Shown: positions 11,262 to 18,642, numbered from the stretch's first letter. The stretch is 64,000 bases of DNA from Miltoncostaea marina (GCF_018141525.1 NZ_CP064655.1:3070501-3134500); one strand, 5' to 3'. The notes: generated by a model from the letters alone, not told the origin. Numbers and translations: made by a program.

Positions 11262-11326
11262 GGGGCGCCCGGCCCTCGCGCCCGTCTACGGTGGGGGCGA
11301 CCCTCGGGACGAGACGGGAGGCATCC

Positions 11327-11959
11327 GTGACCGACGACGACCCCATCCGCGTGGCGATCTGGAGCGACGTGGCGTGCCCCTTCTGCAACGTCGCGCGCGA
11401 GCGCGCCGAGTGGCTGCGCGGCCGGGGCGTCGAGGTGGAGTGGCTGCCCTTCGACCTGCACCCCGAGTACCCGCCGGAGGGCCTGCCGCGGGAGGAGCTG
11501 ATGCGCCGCTTCCCCGCCGGCCTGCACGACACCGTGCGGCGGATGAACGAGGAGGCGGGGCTCCGCTACAACCCGCACCCCGAGCGGGTGCCGAACACCC
11601 GCCGGGCCCTCGAGCTGATCGAGTACGCGCGCACCCAGGGCGCCCACGACCGCCTGCACGAGCGGGTGATGGAGGCCTACTGGGGCGAGGCGCGCGACAT
11701 CACCGACTGGGACGAGCTGGCGCCGCTGGCGGCCGAGGCCGGGCTCGACCCCGACGAGGCGCGCGAGCTGGTGGAGGGCGGCCACTTCCGGGCGGCCGTC
11801 GACGCCTCGACGGGCACCGCCCAGCGGCACGGCATCACCGCGGTGCCGGCGTTCGTGTTCGACGGGCGCCTGCTGGTCAGCGGCGCGCAGCCGCACGAGG
11901 TCCTCGAGAAGGCGCTGGAGCGGGTGGCCGCCATGCGGGCGGACGACGCCGAGGGCTGA
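11327..11959 (+). CDS. DsbA-family oxidoreductase (FrnE-like)
   Basis: A 210-residue cytosolic thioredoxin-fold protein of the FrnE/DsbA subfamily. The redox motif CPFC is at residues 17-20, directly after the first strand (VAIWSDVA). The helical insertion follows, and the cis-Pro loop is TAVPAFVFDG near residue 180. There is no signal peptide, as usual for FrnE homologues, which are thought to be cytoplasmic dithiol-disulfide oxidoreductases. The GTG at 11327 is preceded by GGGAGG at about 11316-11321, which decides the start over an upstream ATG at 11291. A TACGGT element lies near 11287 in the short divergent gap with the MarP-like gene. Confidence 0.9.
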   Translation: MTDDDPIRVAIWSDVACPFCNVARERAEWLRGRGVEVEWLPFDLHPEYPPEGLPREELMRRFPAGLHDTVRRMNEEAGLRYNPHPERVPNTRRALELIEYARTQGAHDRLHERVMEAYWGEARDITDWDELAPLAAEAGLDPDEARELVEGGHFRAAVDASTGTAQRHGITAVPAFVFDGRLLVSGAQPHEVLEKALERVAAMRADDAEG

Positions 11960-12644: not shown

Positions 12645-13856
12645 GTGAGGATCATCGCCACCTCCCGCCTGCAGCCCGGCATGCGCCTCGCCCGGCCCGT
12701 CTACTCGGTCTCCTCGGGCGCCCGCATGCCGCTGCTGCGGCCCGACGCGGTGGTCACCGAGCGGGTGCGCGCCGGCCTGGCGCGGGCGGGCGTCTTCGCC
12801 GTCTACATCGACGACCACCTGTCGGAGGGCATCGCCCCCACCGAGCCGATCTCGCCGGAGCTGCGCGACCACGCGGTGCGCGAGCTGTCGTCGGTGTTCT
12901 CGTCGGTGACCACCGACGGCACCTCCACGCGGGTGGCCGGCGAGCAGGTGGAGCGGCTCGGCGGGCTGGTCAAGTCGGTGCTGGGGGAGCTGCGCGAGAG
13001 CCGCCACATGGTCTCCGCGCTGATGGACCTGCAGGCCTTCGACGCCTACACCCTCGGCCACTCGCTCAACGTGTGCGTGCTCGGGCTGATGCTGGGCGAC
13101 GCGATGATGCGCCAGATGGGCTGGGAGGACGGGCGCGGGGTGCGACGCTTCGACCACCTCGACGACCGCCTCGAGAAGCTCGGCGTGGGCCTGCTGCTGC
13201 ACGACATCGGCAAGCTGGTGGTGCCGGCGCACATCCTGCAGAAGCCCGGCCGGCTGACCGAGGACGAGATGTCCCTGGTGCGCAACCACCCCCAGGCGGG
13301 CCTCGACATGATCGAGCGCGGGGCGCTCTCGGCGCTGTCGCGAGTGGTGATCATCGGCCACCACGAGCGCATGGACGGCAGGGGCTACCCCAACGGCCGC
13401 GGCGCCGACCTGCACCCCCACGCCCAGCTCGCGGGGATGGCGGACGTCTACGACGCGGTCTCGTCGATGCGCGTGTACCACGCGCGGCGGCCCACCCACG
13501 AGGCCTGGGAGCTGGTGCTGAGCCTGGCGGGCAGCGCGTTCCCGATCGAGCTGGTCGAGATCTTCAAGCGCACCATCGCCCCCTATCCCGAGGGCGTCGC
13601 CGTGCGGCTCAGCGACGGCCGCCGCGGCATCGTGGCGCGCACGTCGCGCGAGCACATCACGCGGCCGCGCATCCGGGTGACCCACGACGCGGACGGCGCG
13701 GCGGTGGCCCCGCACGACATCGAGCTCTACGAGGAGCTCCACGTGACGATCGCCGACACGCTGCAGGACCTGGAGGGCGCCGACGACCCGACGCCGCCGC
13801 CCGCCGAGCGCACCCCCGACGAGCTGCACGAGCAGCGGATGGCCGCCGTCGTCTGA
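12645..13856 (+). CDS. HD-GYP domain cyclic-di-GMP phosphodiesterase-like protein
   Basis: A 403-residue cytosolic protein. The N-terminal 110 residues resemble the DUF3391-type domain often found before HD-GYP. The catalytic domain has HDIGK at 186-190 and HHERMDGRGYP at 239-249, with HSLNV at 139-143, so metal-binding and GYP residues are intact. HD-GYP enzymes hydrolyse c-di-GMP to GMP. A C-terminal acidic extension (after about 315) contains a small beta domain with RLSDGRRGIV. The start is GTG at 12645. A second c-di-GMP protein lies at 35.3 kb. It is convergent with the propeller gene at 13898. Confidence 0.92.
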   Translation: MRIIATSRLQPGMRLARPVYSVSSGARMPLLRPDAVVTERVRAGLARAGVFAVYIDDHLSEGIAPTEPISPELRDHAVRELSSVFSSVTTDGTSTRVAGEQVERLGGLVKSVLGELRESRHMVSALMDLQAFDAYTLGHSLNVCVLGLMLGDAMMRQMGWEDGRGVRRFDHLDDRLEKLGVGLLLHDIGKLVVPAHILQKPGRLTEDEMSLVRNHPQAGLDMIERGALSALSRVVIIGHHERMDGRGYPNGRGADLHPHAQLAGMADVYDAVSSMRVYHARRPTHEAWELVLSLAGSAFPIELVEIFKRTIAPYPEGVAVRLSDGRRGIVARTSREHITRPRIRVTHDADGAAVAPHDIELYEELHVTIADTLQDLEGADDPTPPPAERTPDELHEQRMAAVV

Positions 13857-13897: not shown

Positions 13898-14737
13898 CTA
13901 CCGCCAGCGGCGCCCGACCACCTCGCCGCGGCCGCGGTTGACGTTCCAGCGGGTGACGTAGGCGCGGCTGGCGCCGAGGGCGGTGGTCCAGAGGATGCGC
14001 CTGGCGCCCCGCTGCGAGAGCAGCGTGCGCACCGGCCCGCCGCGCACCGCGCGGATGCGCAGGAACGAGTCGGAGCCCGCGTGCTCGACCCAGGCGACGC
14101 GCCCCTGGGCCAGCGAGGGGTTGACCTGCAGGCCGGTGACCGAGGTGGCGATCACCCGGCCGCGGGTCAGGCGGCGGACCGGGGAGACGCGGATCTCCGA
14201 CCAGCGCCCGGCGGCCACGTGCCAGGCGATCAGCCCGCCGCGCAGGGCCGGCCGGCCGAGGTCGACGTGGCGGCCCACCCGGGCCACGACGCGCGTGCGC
14301 CGGGTGACGAGGTTCACGAGCTCGAGCACCTGGCCGCCGGTCCGGGTGCGGCGCACGTAGGCCAGGTCGGGCCAATCGAGGGCCGGCTTCATCAGGCGCG
14401 CGCCGTCCACGCGGCCGAGCTCCTGGCCCGAGCGCCAGGCCACCAGGCGCACGCCGGCCGAGTCGACGTACGCCAGGCGCTCGCCGTCGATGGCGGGCGA
14501 GCGGGCGTCCTCGTAGCGCAGCGGCGGCCCGCCCGGGCGGCGCACCAGCACCACGGGCCCCGCGGCGCCGGAGCCCGCCACGGCCACGTGGGCGCCGGAG
14601 GCGGCCGGGTCGAAGGCGCCGCTCAGGCCGGACGGGGCCTGGGCGGCGGCCGGGCCGGCGCCGGCGACCAGCGCGGCCGCGGCCGCCACGAGCGCGGCCG
14701 CGCCGGCCGCCGCCGGGCGCGGGCGCGGGCCGGTCAG
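13898..14737 (-). CDS. secreted small propeller-like protein of the Mau-like cluster
   Basis: About 279 residues. A signal peptide (TGPRPRPAAAGAAALVAAAA, cleavage after AAAQA) precedes about 245 residues of repeating beta motifs such as RLAYVDSAGVRLVAW, DLAYVRRTRTGGQVLELVN and GRVAWVEHAG, giving four to six short blades as in TolB or YVTN-type propellers. There is no ATG/GTG at the head of the frame; a CTG at 14737 overlapping the upstream TGA is the natural start, and a GTG at 14689 would truncate the signal peptide, so the start is uncertain. It is the last gene of a tight minus-strand trio with the MauA-like and MauE-thioredoxin genes. In true methylamine dehydrogenase the heavy chain is also a propeller, but this one is much shorter. 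Confidence 0.65.
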   Translation of the reverse strand: MTGPRPRPAAAGAAALVAAAAALVAGAGPAAAQAPSGLSGAFDPAASGAHVAVAGSGAAGPVVLVRRPGGPPLRYEDARSPAIDGERLAYVDSAGVRLVAWRSGQELGRVDGARLMKPALDWPDLAYVRRTRTGGQVLELVNLVTRRTRVVARVGRHVDLGRPALRGGLIAWHVAAGRWSEIRVSPVRRLTRGRVIATSVTGLQVNPSLAQGRVAWVEHAGSDSFLRIRAVRGGPVRTLLSQRGARRILWTTALGASRAYVTRWNVNRGRGEVVGRRWR

Positions 14738-15360
14738 CAGGGCACCCCGGTGTCGACGTACATCACGCAGAACACCCGCCGGCCCGGGCGGCAGTAGCCG
14801 CGCAGCGAGGCGTCGCCGTTGATGCGCACCCGGCTCGTCGAGCAGCAGTCGGCGAGCTTGCGGATCTGGTTGTCGCAGCAGCGGTACCAGGCGCCCTGGG
14901 TGACGGTCGTGATGCCGAAGCGCTTCGGCACCCAGTCCTCGCACAGGCGGGTGCGCGGCGCCTTCGGCAGCGGGGTGCCGTCGCGGCGCACCAGCGGCGC
15001 GCCGGCCTCGTCGACCGGCCGGCCGAGCGCGTCGACCAGGCGGCCGCGGTCGTCGATCGGGCGCCCGTCCGTCGGCCGCACCGGGTAGCCGCGCGGGTCG
15101 ACCCGGGGCAGCGGGCCGGGCGCCGGGCAGGAGCCGGTGGTCCAGGTGTGGCCGCAGAAGCCGTACCAGCCCTGCTTGGTGCGCCTGGTGCCGTAGACGC
15201 GGCGGCGGCGCGCGCCCTCCGCGGGCGCGGCGCCCACCAGCGCAAGCGCGCCGGCCGCCACCGCGGCCAGGAACGAGCGGCGCGTGGCGCGCGACGCCAG
15301 GCCGTGGGCGAGGCCCCGGGCGGTGCGGTCGATGGCCCGCTCGCCGTCAGGCGACCGCAC
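14734..15360 (-). CDS. Tat-exported cysteine-rich protein resembling methylamine dehydrogenase light chain
   Basis: A 208-residue protein. A long leader with a canonical twin-arginine motif (TRRSFLA, Arg27-Arg28) and hydrophobic stretch ends near residue 48, as in MauA. The mature part has ten Cys (69, 78, 140, 161, 162, 172, 173, 190, 198, 208), including two CC pairs, a pattern recalling the six-disulfide MADH light chain. Residues 88-131 form about six short repeats of the type DxxGxPV. Trp residues are at 65, 73, 143 and 158; the spot matching the second cofactor Trp of MADH appears to be Phe197 (VFC), so a tryptophan tryptophylquinone cofactor looks unlikely. The GTG start overlaps the MauE-like gene by 14 bases. 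Assignment to the MADH-L fold is by pattern only. Confidence 0.55.
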   Translation of the reverse strand: MRSPDGERAIDRTARGLAHGLASRATRRSFLAAVAAGALALVGAAPAEGARRRRVYGTRRTKQGWYGFCGHTWTTGSCPAPGPLPRVDPRGYPVRPTDGRPIDDRGRLVDALGRPVDEAGAPLVRRDGTPLPKAPRTRLCEDWVPKRFGITTVTQGAWYRCCDNQIRKLADCCSTSRVRINGDASLRGYCRPGRRVFCVMYVDTGVPC

Positions 15361-16219
15361 CGATGCGCTCCTCCCCCAGCGAGATCAGCTCCTCGATCTG
15401 CTCCAGCGTGTTGACCAGGCCCTTGGCCACCACGACGCCGTCGATGGCGAAGACCACGTACGGCGTGCCGGGCACCCGGAAGTCGGCGAAGACGCCGGGC
15501 GACGCGTGCTCGTCGACCCGCACGACCTCGATGCCCTCGCGCTCGACGGCCTCGAGGGCCGGGCGCAGGTCGGCGCACAGGCGGCAGCCCGGCGAGGAGA
15601 AGGCCACCAGCTCGGCGCCGCGGCCGCGCAGGGCGTCGAAGGCCGGCGCCGGGCCGCCGAGCGGCGGGCCCTCGTGCTCCAGCTCGAGCGCCGGCCGGGG
15701 CCCGAGCCGGGCCTCCAGCACGCCCACCTGGCGGTAGAGCGCCAGCACGAGCACGGCCAGCGCCACCACGGCCAGCGCCAGGGCGGCGAGGGCGACGGCG
15801 GTCAGCACCCCGCCCGAGGGCGCGGGCCGGTCGGCGACGCCCGAGGCGACCACGGCGCCGAGCGCCGCCAGCAGCAGGGCGCGGACGGCGAGCAGCGCCA
15901 CGGGCCGCTCGCGCGTGCCGCCGAAGCAGCCGCAGGGCGCCCGGCGCCGCCCGCGGGCGCGCATGAGCCCCAGCGAGCCGGCGAACACCAGCCCCAGGGC
16001 GGCGGTGCCGGCGCCGGCGGCGCGGGCGGCCGGCTCCACCAGCAGCAGCGCGCCGAGCGCGGCCTCGACGGCCACCAGCGCGGCCGCCGCGGCACCGCGC
16101 AGCGGCCGCGGGACGCCGTGGTCCGCGACGGCCGCGGTCAGCGCCCGGGGGTCGCGGAGCTTCGCCGCCGCGGCGGCGAGCAGCACGACGGCGAGCACGA
16201 TGCGGAGCGTCAGTTCCAC
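15347..16219 (-). CDS. MauE-like membrane protein fused to a thioredoxin-like domain
   Basis: A 290-residue protein. Residues 1-128 are a four-helix MauE/DoxX-like redox membrane domain with the family motif CGCFGG (96-101). A further helix at about 138-160 leads into a thioredoxin-like domain (about 185-285) with redox motif CRLC (Cys212, Cys215) and cis-Pro253 in GTPYVV. MauE and MauD are separate proteins in classical methylamine utilisation, where they form the disulfides of the light chain. Here both functions are fused and sit directly upstream of a Cys-rich exported protein, so I infer it is the dedicated disulfide donor. A TACCGT element lies 9 bases before the GTG start, overlapping the DegV stop. 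Confidence 0.8.
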   Translation of the reverse strand: MELTLRIVLAVVLLAAAAAKLRDPRALTAAVADHGVPRPLRGAAAAALVAVEAALGALLLVEPAARAAGAGTAALGLVFAGSLGLMRARGRRRAPCGCFGGTRERPVALLAVRALLLAALGAVVASGVADRPAPSGGVLTAVALAALALAVVALAVLVLALYRQVGVLEARLGPRPALELEHEGPPLGGPAPAFDALRGRGAELVAFSSPGCRLCADLRPALEAVEREGIEVVRVDEHASPGVFADFRVPGTPYVVFAIDGVVVAKGLVNTLEQIEELISLGEERIGAVA

Positions 16220-16234
16220 CGGCGGGCGACGGTA

Positions 16235-17137
16235 TCAGGAGGGATCGCCACCGCCATGGGGCGCGGGCGGATCGTGGACGAACGCCACCACGTAGGCGCC
16301 CGGCCCGGCGTGGGTGCCGACCGTCGGCCCCACCTCGGCGACGAGCTCCGTGACCGCCAGCGGGCGCACGCCCGCGACGAGCGCCTCCAGCTCCGGCACG
16401 ACCTCCGGCCGGCGCGAGTGGCCGTAGGCGACGCGCAGCGGCCGGTCGTCGCGCGAGTTCTCGGCCACGAACCGCTCGATCGCCGGCAGCACCCGGTGGG
16501 CGCCCCGCACCCGCGAGTGCGGCGCCACCTCGCCGTCGAGGATCTGCAGGATCGGGCGCACCCGCAGCAGCGACCCGGCCACCGCCTGGGCGCGCCCGAT
16601 GCGCCCGCCGCGCAGCAGGAACTCGAGCGTCTCGAGGGTGAAGACCGCCCGGTGGGCGGCCGACAGCGCGGCGACGTGCGCCGCCGCCTCGCCCGCCGTG
16701 CAGCCGCGCTCCAGCAGCGCCTGCAGCCGCAGGGCGATCAGCCCGAGCGCCACCGTCACCGACCCGCTCTCGAGCACGAGGGTGCGCGCCGGGTCGACCG
16801 CCTCGGCGGCGGCCCGGGCGCGCTCGACCGTGCCCGACATGCGCCCCGACAGCGGCAGCACCACGGCGCTGTCGTGGTCCTCCAGGGCCCGGCGCATGAC
16901 GTCCTCGAGCACCCCGGGCGAGGGCTGGGCCGTGGTCGGCAGGCGCCCGGCGCGGGCGAGGCGCTCGTAGAAGGCGGCGGCGTCGATGTCGACGCCGTCG
17001 GCGAACGCCCGGTCGCCGAAGATCACCGGGATCGGCACCACGCGCCAGTTGGCCGGCCGGCGCTCCGGCGGCACGTCGCACGAGGAGTCGACCACCAGCG
17101 CGGTGCGGCCCGCGTCGAGCGGGCGGCCGGGGTCCAT
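16235..17137 (-). CDS. DegV-family fatty-acid-binding protein (FakB-like)
   Basis: A 300-residue DegV-family protein. It has the N-terminal TALVVDSSCDVP strand-turn, TTAQPSP at 68-74 and LSGRMSGT at 96-103, which in FakB contact the fatty-acid carboxylate. The second domain follows. FakB proteins present bound fatty acids to the kinase FakA, yielding acyl-phosphate for phospholipid synthesis. The ATG overlaps the stop of the upstream DAK2 gene by one base (TGATG), strong support for a FakA-FakB operon with translational coupling. In FakB the segment GRIGRAQAVAGSLLRVRPIL is also characteristic. Confidence 0.88.
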   Translation of the reverse strand: MDPGRPLDAGRTALVVDSSCDVPPERRPANWRVVPIPVIFGDRAFADGVDIDAAAFYERLARAGRLPTTAQPSPGVLEDVMRRALEDHDSAVVLPLSGRMSGTVERARAAAEAVDPARTLVLESGSVTVALGLIALRLQALLERGCTAGEAAAHVAALSAAHRAVFTLETLEFLLRGGRIGRAQAVAGSLLRVRPILQILDGEVAPHSRVRGAHRVLPAIERFVAENSRDDRPLRVAYGHSRRPEVVPELEALVAGVRPLAVTELVAEVGPTVGTHAGPGAYVVAFVHDPPAPHGGGDPS

Positions 17138-18642
17138 CACTCCACCCCCACCCAGAGCGCCGGCGCCGCCTGGCCGCCGGCGTGGGCCTCGACCTCCACG
17201 CCGGCGCCGGCGGCCGCGCGCACCCAGCCCTCCACCACGGCCGGGTCGACCGCCGGGGCCGCCCCGACGAGCACGGTGACGAGGGCGTCGCCGCCCGGCG
17301 CGACCAGCGGCGCCAGCGCCCGGGCCAGCGCCTCGCGCAGCGCGCCCGGGTCGTCGCCGTCGACGGCGGCGACCGCCACGGCGCCGGCCGCGGCGCGCAT
17401 CCGCTCGGCCGCCTCCGCGGCCGACGCCGCCGGGTCGAGCTCGACCAGGGCGCTCAGCATCGCGGGCGGCCCGCTGACCGCCACCACCTCGACGCCCGGG
17501 TGCCCCTCGGCGGCCTCGCGGGCGTCGGCGGCGTCGGCCCCGCACGCGAGCACGACCACCTCCAGCCCGTCCAGCGCGCCGATGGCCGCGGCGATCGGGG
17601 CGGGGTCGCCTGCCGGCGCGAGCGGGGTGGCGCCGAGGCCCTCGGTCAGGGCCCGCAGGCCGTCGCCGCCCGCCACCGCCAGCGCCGCGCAGCGCGCCGC
17701 CGGGTGGGCGCGGCGGGCGATGCGCGCCGCCCGCTCGGCCTCCTGGCGGCGCATGTCGTCCCAGCGCACGCCGTCGACCGCCCCCCAGGCGGCCGCGGCG
17801 GCCGCCGCGCGCTCGGGCGCGTCGGTGTGCACGTGCACCTTCGCCCGGCGGGCGTCGCCCATCACCAGCAGGCTGTCGCCGAGCGGCAGCAGGGCGGCCT
17901 CGAGGGCGGGCAGGTCGATCGCCTCGCCCTCCACGAGGAAGGTGGTGCAGTAGCGGAAGCGCGAGGGCGGGTGGTCGGTCGCCGGGGCGCGCGGAGCGGC
18001 CGCCGGCGGCGCGGCCGGCGGCTCGCGCCCGGCGAGCGCGGCGGCGAGGCCCTCGAGCAGGATCGCCACGCCGAGGCCGCCCGCGTCGACCACGCCCGCC
18101 TCGCGCAGGGCCGGGAGCATGCCGGTGGTGGCCGCGACCGCGTCGCGCGCGCCGGCCAGGGCGGCCTCGAGCGCCCCGAGCGGCCCGCCTCCGGAGGCGT
18201 CGGCGGCCGCCTCGGCGGCGGCGCGCGCGACCGTCAGCATCGTGCCCTCCACCGGGGCGCGCACCGCGCCGTAGGCCGCATCGCTCGCGGCGCGCAGCGC
18301 CTCCGCCACGGCCGCCCCGCCGGGCGGCCCCGTCGCGGCGGCCATCGCCTCGGCGGCGCCGCGCACGAGCTGGGAGAGGATCATGCCGCTGTTGCCGCGC
18401 GCGCCCATGAGGGCCGCCCGGGCGATCGCGTCCCAGCGCTCGGCCGACGGCATTCCCGCCGTGGCGCGCGCGGCCTCCTCGACGGCCGCGGCCGTCATCA
18501 GCATGTTGGTGCCGGTGTCGCCGTCGGCGACCGGGAAGACGTTGAGGTCGTCCAGCTCGCCGGCCCTCGCCGCGAGCGCGGCGCGGGCGGCGGCGATGCA
18601 GCGCGTGACTCGCTCGTCCGGGAGCGCGGCCGTGCCCGTCAT
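17137..18642 (-). CDS. fakA: DAK2-domain fatty acid kinase subunit (FakA/YloV-like)
   Basis: A 501-residue protein with an N-terminal DhaL/DAK2 kinase domain. The nucleotide/metal signature LNVFPVADGDTGTNM spans residues 33-47 (Asp40, Asp42), followed by GARGNSGMILSQ (about 90-101). A linker with Ala/Pro and a C-terminal FakA-type domain follow; it ends with LWVGVE. FakA phosphorylates FakB-bound fatty acids. It is coupled to the downstream DegV gene by a one-base overlap. A TAGGGT element sits 9 bases before the ATG, indicating a very short leader. Confidence 0.9.
   Translation of the reverse strand: MTGTAALPDERVTRCIAAARAALAARAGELDDLNVFPVADGDTGTNMLMTAAAVEEAARATAGMPSAERWDAIARAALMGARGNSGMILSQLVRGAAEAMAAATGPPGGAAVAEALRAASDAAYGAVRAPVEGTMLTVARAAAEAAADASGGGPLGALEAALAGARDAVAATTGMLPALREAGVVDAGGLGVAILLEGLAAALAGREPPAAPPAAAPRAPATDHPPSRFRYCTTFLVEGEAIDLPALEAALLPLGDSLLVMGDARRAKVHVHTDAPERAAAAAAAWGAVDGVRWDDMRRQEAERAARIARRAHPAARCAALAVAGGDGLRALTEGLGATPLAPAGDPAPIAAAIGALDGLEVVVLACGADAADAREAAEGHPGVEVVAVSGPPAMLSALVELDPAASAAEAAERMRAAAGAVAVAAVDGDDPGALREALARALAPLVAPGGDALVTVLVGAAPAVDPAVVEGWVRAAAGAGVEVEAHAGGQAAPALWVGVE

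Follow-up and report, generated by a model that had tools for sequence, protein, structure and literature searches.

The three-gene cluster on the minus strand of the Miltoncostaea marina DNA analysed here (64,000 nucleotides, referred to as the window) is probably the local part of a four-part system that matures a single exported, disulfide-rich protein. The four parts are a MauE-MauD fusion (gene A), the exported protein itself (gene B), a beta-propeller protein (gene C) and MauF. Judged from sequence comparisons, MauE, MauD and MauF most likely form a dedicated thiol or selenol relay that would build the disulfides of B. In those relatives whose mauF carries an in-frame TGA codon, MauF is very probably a selenoprotein. 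An earlier sequence-only reading of this locus had proposed a rearranged set of Mau proteins serving another exported disulfide-rich protein, and this core idea is supported by the MauE-MauD fusion, the leader of B and the conserved synteny.

The gene cluster and its exported cysteine-rich protein

All three genes lie on one strand, at the place where they had been read from the sequence (Table 1). They had also been described as overlapping end to end, which is true of A and B (14 nt, with a GTG start for gene B). B and C abut, and would overlap only if gene C began at the unusual CTG at 14737, which would overlap the stop codon of B; the start of gene C is uncertain between this codon and the GTG at 14689, the first standard start. 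The GC3 value is 0.99 in genes A, B and C.

Table 1. Genes of the cluster and neighbouring features (window coordinates)
Feature	Position	Strand	Basis or remark
Gene A: MauE-MauD fusion, 290 aa	15347..16219	-	PF07291, PF13192 and TIGR02661 matches
Gene B: Tat-exported Cys-rich protein, 208 aa, 10 Cys	14734..15360	-	AlphaFold2 models, TTQ light chains as first structural matches, leader similarity
Gene C: exported TolB-like beta-propeller, at most 279 aa after the N-terminal Met	13898..14737	-	Family profile against PDB
DsbA/FrnE-like thiol oxidoreductase	11291-11959	+	By eye, DVACPFCNVA motif; about 2 kb from gene C
Flanking HD-domain (HD-GYP-type), DegV family and DAK2/FakA-like proteins	12645-13856 and 16235-18642	+ and -, respectively	

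Residues 3-124 of gene A match the MauE family (PF07291; E 9.1e-23, 81.4 bits against a cut-off of 27) and residues 209-279 match a thioredoxin family (PF13192; E 1.2e-6), which confirms the fused MauE-thioredoxin membrane protein of the earlier reading. Against the NCBIfam MauD model (TIGR02661), gene A scores 50.2 bits (E 2e-13), under the cut-off of 188.6, and the separate mauD-like gene of a relative (L075) reaches 90.5 bits with the same cut-off. On these profile scores, the thioredoxin part is MauD-like rather than MauD sensu stricto. The MauE membrane domain contains a CGCFG motif, while the membrane-tethered thioredoxin domain contains SPGCRLC (CxxC) and a PGTP cis-proline motif. Both CxxC and PGTP are also present in the A proteins of those relatives where the pattern search matched.

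The product of gene C combines a beta-propeller with an N-terminus that looks like a signal sequence. Searched by itself, the window protein matches nothing in Pfam, but a profile of its family finds TolB propellers in the PDB (E 1.3e-8). Homology of this propeller to MauB was rejected in favour of TolB (hhalign prob 0.2 against a set of MauB/PF06433 heavy chains). A short secreted propeller had been predicted, and its N-terminus and propeller fold are borne out, but the gene is a shortened form of a larger MauF-propeller gene. In most relatives, approximately 600 bases between B and the propeller region encode a membrane domain that is fused to the propeller. In two genomes (G157, locus L149, and G233), the MauF-propeller gene does not follow its B gene immediately but lies about 4 kb away.

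A genome search recovered B with strong scores in 38 of the 299 genomes sampled from the class Thermoleophilia. A homologue of A is located directly upstream of B in 32 of 33 loci, the one exception being at a contig end, so the genes do stay together in relatives. The protein has an RR-type Tat leader, and its ten cysteines (C69, C78, C140, C161, C162, C172, C173, C190, C198 and C208) are invariant among relatives. W158, D171 and Y189 are invariant in all 47 mature B sequences, and the N181-G-D183 motif is likewise invariant. The leader resembles that of the methylamine dehydrogenase (MADH) light chain (hhalign prob 94.7, E 5.7e-8), in agreement with the Tat-exported, Cys-rich protein with a MauA-like leader that had been recognised from the sequence. 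Mature B gives no hhalign signal against the MADH light chain. The direct Pfam search that had been suggested as a check, with the light-chain family Me-amine-dh_L (PF02975), found no match in B, in 28 relatives or anywhere in the whole window genome; the positive control, Paracoccus MauA, scored 2e-53 in the same search. The light-chain model TIGR02659 matched one B relative only, in the leader region (E 0.04), and direct sequence searches of B against Pfam, NCBIfam and PDB gave nothing meaningful.

Structure prediction was the second suggested check. AlphaFold2 models were obtained for window B (pLDDT 80) and for the mature domain of a short B relative (pLDDT 90, pTM 0.82), and Foldseek found no significant match for either. 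VIA-align, by which about 770 and about 1,000 chains were re-aligned for the two models, returned a TTQ light chain first in both cases, namely the AADH light chain 2agy_H (Z 4.2 for window B; Z 4.5, rmsd 2.7, 69 aligned for the second model). The next match of the second model was the MADH light chain 1mda_L (Z 3.8, rmsd 3.7, 75 aligned), and the next unrelated row had a Z of 2.7. With Z values this modest, the structural matches alone would not establish homology between B and the MADH light chain. Combined with the Mau partners, the cysteine order and the leader, they make a light-chain-like fold of B likely.

In the MADH light chain, Trp57 and Trp108 form TTQ and Asp76 is catalytic. Seven B cysteines (C69, C78, C162, C172, C173, C190 and C198) can be paired in order with its C36, C46, C61, C77, C78, C109 and C121, a pairing that would place W158 on Trp57, D171 on Asp76 and Y189 on Trp108. 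The VIA-align end-points agree only in part, since the 2agy_H range fits C198 on the Cys of the light-chain YHC motif and the 1mda_L range would be shifted by two residues; the assignment of Y189 to the position of the second TTQ Trp is therefore one that we infer. With this pairing, an invariant Tyr apparently occupies the position of the second TTQ Trp, and as the genome also has no MauG, B is unlikely to contain TTQ.

MauF and its in-frame TGA codon

In the relatives, the N-terminal domain of the C proteins contains WSPCG and R-x-QVP motifs and is homologous to the MauF proteins of Paracoccus and Indioceanicola (prob 99.2 and E 5.9e-20 by hhalign; blastp E down to 2e-17). The earlier list of Mau parts had missed MauF, which is fused to C in most relatives and is encoded in trans here. 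The domain is absent from C in the window genome and in the congener G119, and each of the two has a stand-alone mauF instead. That of the window genome (L102; G000:C1:3226994-3227644) matches profile A5 with E 5.6e-61 and is located about 92 kb beyond the right edge of the window, 140 kb from its presumed partners. Total loss of MauF from the window genome, which had been considered, was accordingly rejected. The second gene is found at G119:C1:3553133-3553774 (L103). Both of these Cys-type genes adjoin futalosine/menaquinone-type genes. Sensory rhodopsin matches of profile A5 were taken as membrane-composition noise.

In the class sample, MauF is encoded in 38 of 38 genomes with B and in 16 of 261 genomes without B (Fisher p 1e-35, uncorrected for relatedness). 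It is this co-occurrence that points to a role in B maturation for the distant MauF of the window genome. Other Actinomycetota families lack the propeller and have the order mauD-B-mauF; their mauE is fused to mauF or lies on the opposite strand. The constant parts of the system are therefore MauE, MauD, MauF and B, to which the propeller has been added.

In many relatives, the mauF reading frame breaks exactly at the WSPCG cysteine. The codon at this position is TGA in 41 distinct sequences and TGC or TGT in 20, with no case of TAA, TAG or any other codon (L082, a false pattern match, was left out of the census). Third positions account for 55% of substitutions in the 19 codons before the TGA and for 55% in the 50 codons after it, and this equal codon-position bias indicates that both sides are translated in one frame. 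A six-pair SECIS-like hairpin starts approximately 9 nt downstream of the TGA; its complete form occurs in 28 of the 41 TGA sequences vs. 2 of the 20 Cys sequences. Its mean energy is -6.4 kcal/mol in the former and -3.0 kcal/mol in the latter, with a p value (4.5e-6) that is only a guide as the sequences are related. SelA is found in 30 of 34 TGA-type genomes, compared with 6 of 13 Cys-type genomes, and most of the exceptions are incomplete assemblies. In G128, which belongs to the window's own family, tRNA-Sec (selC) lies on the same 10-kb stretch as the cluster (L080, 35-6818); there, the same-strand genes immediately upstream of A-B-MauF are selD, a 226-codon open frame, selA and selB. A MauF tree built with the Sec/Cys column masked requires at least 3 to 4 changes between the Sec and Cys states.

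The codon census, the two-sided codon bias, the hairpin, the SelA distribution and the selDAB linkage together make it very probable that MauF is a selenoprotein in the TGA-type relatives. No description of MauF as a selenoprotein was found, and the selenoproteome papers that were term-searched contained no mention of methylamine or Mau, which is not proof of absence; MauF would be an apparently undescribed family of membrane selenoproteins in Actinomycetota. The probable selenocysteine is invisible from the 64-kb window alone. We know of no biochemical role for MauF, a methylamine-utilisation gene product. The repeated occurrence of Sec at its sole conserved Cys identifies this position as a probable redox centre, which brings the role of MauF within reach of experiment.

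The window genome has no SelA (PF03841), and a SelB search gave only an EF-Tu-level match. Its best tRNA-Sec candidate was rejected as a tRNA-Ser. The absences of PF03841 and of PF03150 rest on one complete genome, the other genomes being partly incomplete. In the MauF tree, the Cys-type MauF of the window genome falls among Cys-type proteins from other families and apart from the Sec-type MauF of the congener G105. The sequence data make it very probable that the window lineage abandoned selenocysteine and acquired its Cys-type MauF from a different lineage. The simplest history is that the fused Sec-MauF domain was lost and replaced by a Cys-MauF in trans, and that the Sec machinery was lost. 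The congener G119, which has a Cys-MauF yet keeps SelA, SelB and tRNA-Sec, looks like an intermediate step of this replacement. The genus is a clean natural experiment, in which loss of the Sec machinery coincides with replacement of Sec-MauF by Cys-MauF.

Wider family, proposed relay and alternative explanations

MauF homologues without B adjoin other Tat-type proteins (12 to 28 Cys), together with MauE and MauD, and mostly have TGA in mauF. Paralogous clusters in other genomes of the class (L132-L137, L146 and L147) encode a cargo, B', with 24 to 28 Cys and a Tat-type leader. The B' loci are flanked by MauE, MauD and a mostly TGA-type MauF, and in L146 and L147, MauE is fused to the cargo. 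Unrelated-looking Tat-type Cys-rich proteins (12 to 21 Cys) are found beside MauE/MauD/MauF-like genes in L138, L139, L141, L142, L144 and L145. Leader and mature part together, B' aligns with the MADH light chain at E 6e-8; bridging by the mature part alone scores 20.4, vs. at most 19.1 in 60 column shuffles, and B' aligns weakly with B around the W..C and DCC motifs. The resemblance of B to the MADH light chain thus draws on the leader, the modest VIA-align scores, the cysteine order and a weak bridging by B'. Candidate RiPP clusters of Streptomyces (decRiPPter, PMC7794033) are also reported to contain MauE and MauD homologues. These clusters and the other Tat-type cargo loci suggest that MauE/D/F are a general module for exported Cys-rich proteins, from which methylamine dehydrogenase may be a specialised offshoot.

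DsbD/CcdA proteins use a Cys pair, whereas MauF has one conserved Cys/Sec only. Its similarity to DsbD_TM (PF02683) is weak, with a match in 1 of 12 members (19.6 bits for the best member, cut-off 27.1; Pfam E 6e-4), and against CcdA E is about 1. A membrane thiol relay is nevertheless suggested by Sec at the sole conserved MauF Cys, by the DsbD/CcdA-like first-Cys motif and by the weak DsbD_TM match. PMC7794033, citing van der Palen 1997, gives MauE and MauD a presumed part in forming the disulfides of the MADH light chain. We infer a relay in which MauF would move thiol or selenol redox equivalents across the membrane and pass them to MauE (CGC) and then to the MauD thioredoxin domain (CxxC), which would form, or reshuffle and correct, the five likely disulfides of B. 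Mature B would then act together with the propeller on the outer side of the membrane, arranged as the light and heavy chains of MADH are but without TTQ. The order of transfer and the pairing of B with the propeller are, like the relay itself, part of this model. The modest fold match between B and the MADH light chain, the weak relation of MauF to DsbD, its single conserved Cys/Sec, the 140 kb that separate MauF from its presumed partners in the window genome, and the presence of SelA in some Cys-type genomes count against it.

A broader proposal is held tentatively, as a possibility that falls short of an even chance. MauF could be a transmembrane (seleno)thiol oxidoreductase, MauE/D/F a widespread and separately evolving oxidative-folding pathway for Tat-exported Cys-rich proteins with a light-chain-like ancestor, and B might also carry a new Trp-Tyr cofactor.

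The very different Cys-rich cargoes of the other clusters (12 to 28 Cys) and the Streptomyces candidate RiPP clusters would also agree with B being a secreted disulfide-rich effector or peptide-like product, either RiPP-like or signalling, for which MauE/D/F would be tailoring enzymes. However, B retains a long conserved folded domain (pLDDT 90 in the relative's model) and a Tat leader, it has a dedicated propeller in one class, and no RiPP enzymes or exporters are linked to the cluster. We consider this explanation unlikely, though not far-fetched.

It is distinctly unlikely that B carries a different protein-derived redox cofactor, such as a Trp158-Tyr189 crosslink made with the aid of MauE/D/F or of some oxidase. 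In favour of such a cofactor are the invariance of W158, Y189 and D171 and the proposed match of these residues to the TTQ pair and catalytic Asp when the cysteines are aligned in order. That alignment depends on cysteine order and a modest fold match, however, and one invariant Trp and one invariant Tyr may be merely structural; no oxidase is linked to the cluster, and MauG is absent.

The cluster product is probably not an amine dehydrogenase, and a minimal enzyme of that kind, with B as the TTQ light chain and C as the heavy chain, oxidising an amine outside the membrane, is very unlikely. MauE, MauD and MauF are MADH biogenesis factors, the leader of B is MADH-like with hints of a shared fold, and a propeller gene adjoins; but Y189 apparently stands in place of the second TTQ Trp, B and its relatives lack a PF02975 match, and the propeller lacks MauB similarity. 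As had been remarked of the surroundings of the cluster, mauG is not near, and CCP_MauG (PF03150) is in fact absent from the whole window genome and from 10 of 11 other genomes searched. Likewise, the cluster showed no amicyanin or amine genes, in line with the earlier statement that no amine-utilisation gene is near. The sole positive among those 11 genomes is the congener G105, which has two CCP_MauG family genes (on C49 and C214). The earlier description of a minimal, rearranged Mau system fits the fused MauE and MauD, the leader, and the TTQ light chains at the top of the structural comparison, but not the propeller. Lastly, a Met codon often follows closely after the mauF TGA and Sec is predicted from sequence, but a translation start at Met three codons later, or reading of the TGA as another residue, is extremely improbable given a TGA exactly at the conserved Cys in 41 sequences, an upstream TM1 that is conserved as protein with the same codon-position bias as the downstream part, and a hairpin, SelA distribution and selDAB linkage that all fit Sec.

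Comparison with known systems

The relay system preferred here shares MauE, MauD and MauF with the mauFBEDACJGMN cluster of Paracoccus denitrificans and with the aau system for aromatic amines, as well as a small, Tat-exported, Cys-rich and light-chain-like protein whose long leader is similar. As in mau, there is a gene for a propeller protein too, here in Thermoleophilia. Unlike in mau, the genes are fused and reordered (MauE-MauD and MauF-propeller), and genes for MauG, amicyanin, MauJ and ferredoxin are missing. The propeller is TolB-like without detectable likeness to MauB, the second TTQ Trp is apparently Tyr in B, and MauF mostly contains predicted Sec.

MauF and DsbD/CcdA have in common a membrane domain of several helices, an S-P-C motif early in it, and a thioredoxin-like partner on the outer side of the membrane; MauF differs in keeping a single conserved Cys/Sec, in its weak similarity and in having MauE and MauD as partners. 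With known bacterial selenoproteins (DsbA-like, DsbG-like, SelW-like, and the AhpF N-terminal domain; PMC1794560), it shares a presumed redox site at which Sec and Cys alternate, a hairpin that closely follows the UGA, and the presence of selABCD in most of the genomes, but MauF is a polytopic membrane protein. The Streptomyces candidate RiPP clusters (PMC7794033) likewise have MauE or MauD homologues outside methylamine metabolism, there beside a short precursor. In contrast, the set described here also includes MauF and is conserved in many genera, and its cargo combines a Tat leader with a larger folded domain.
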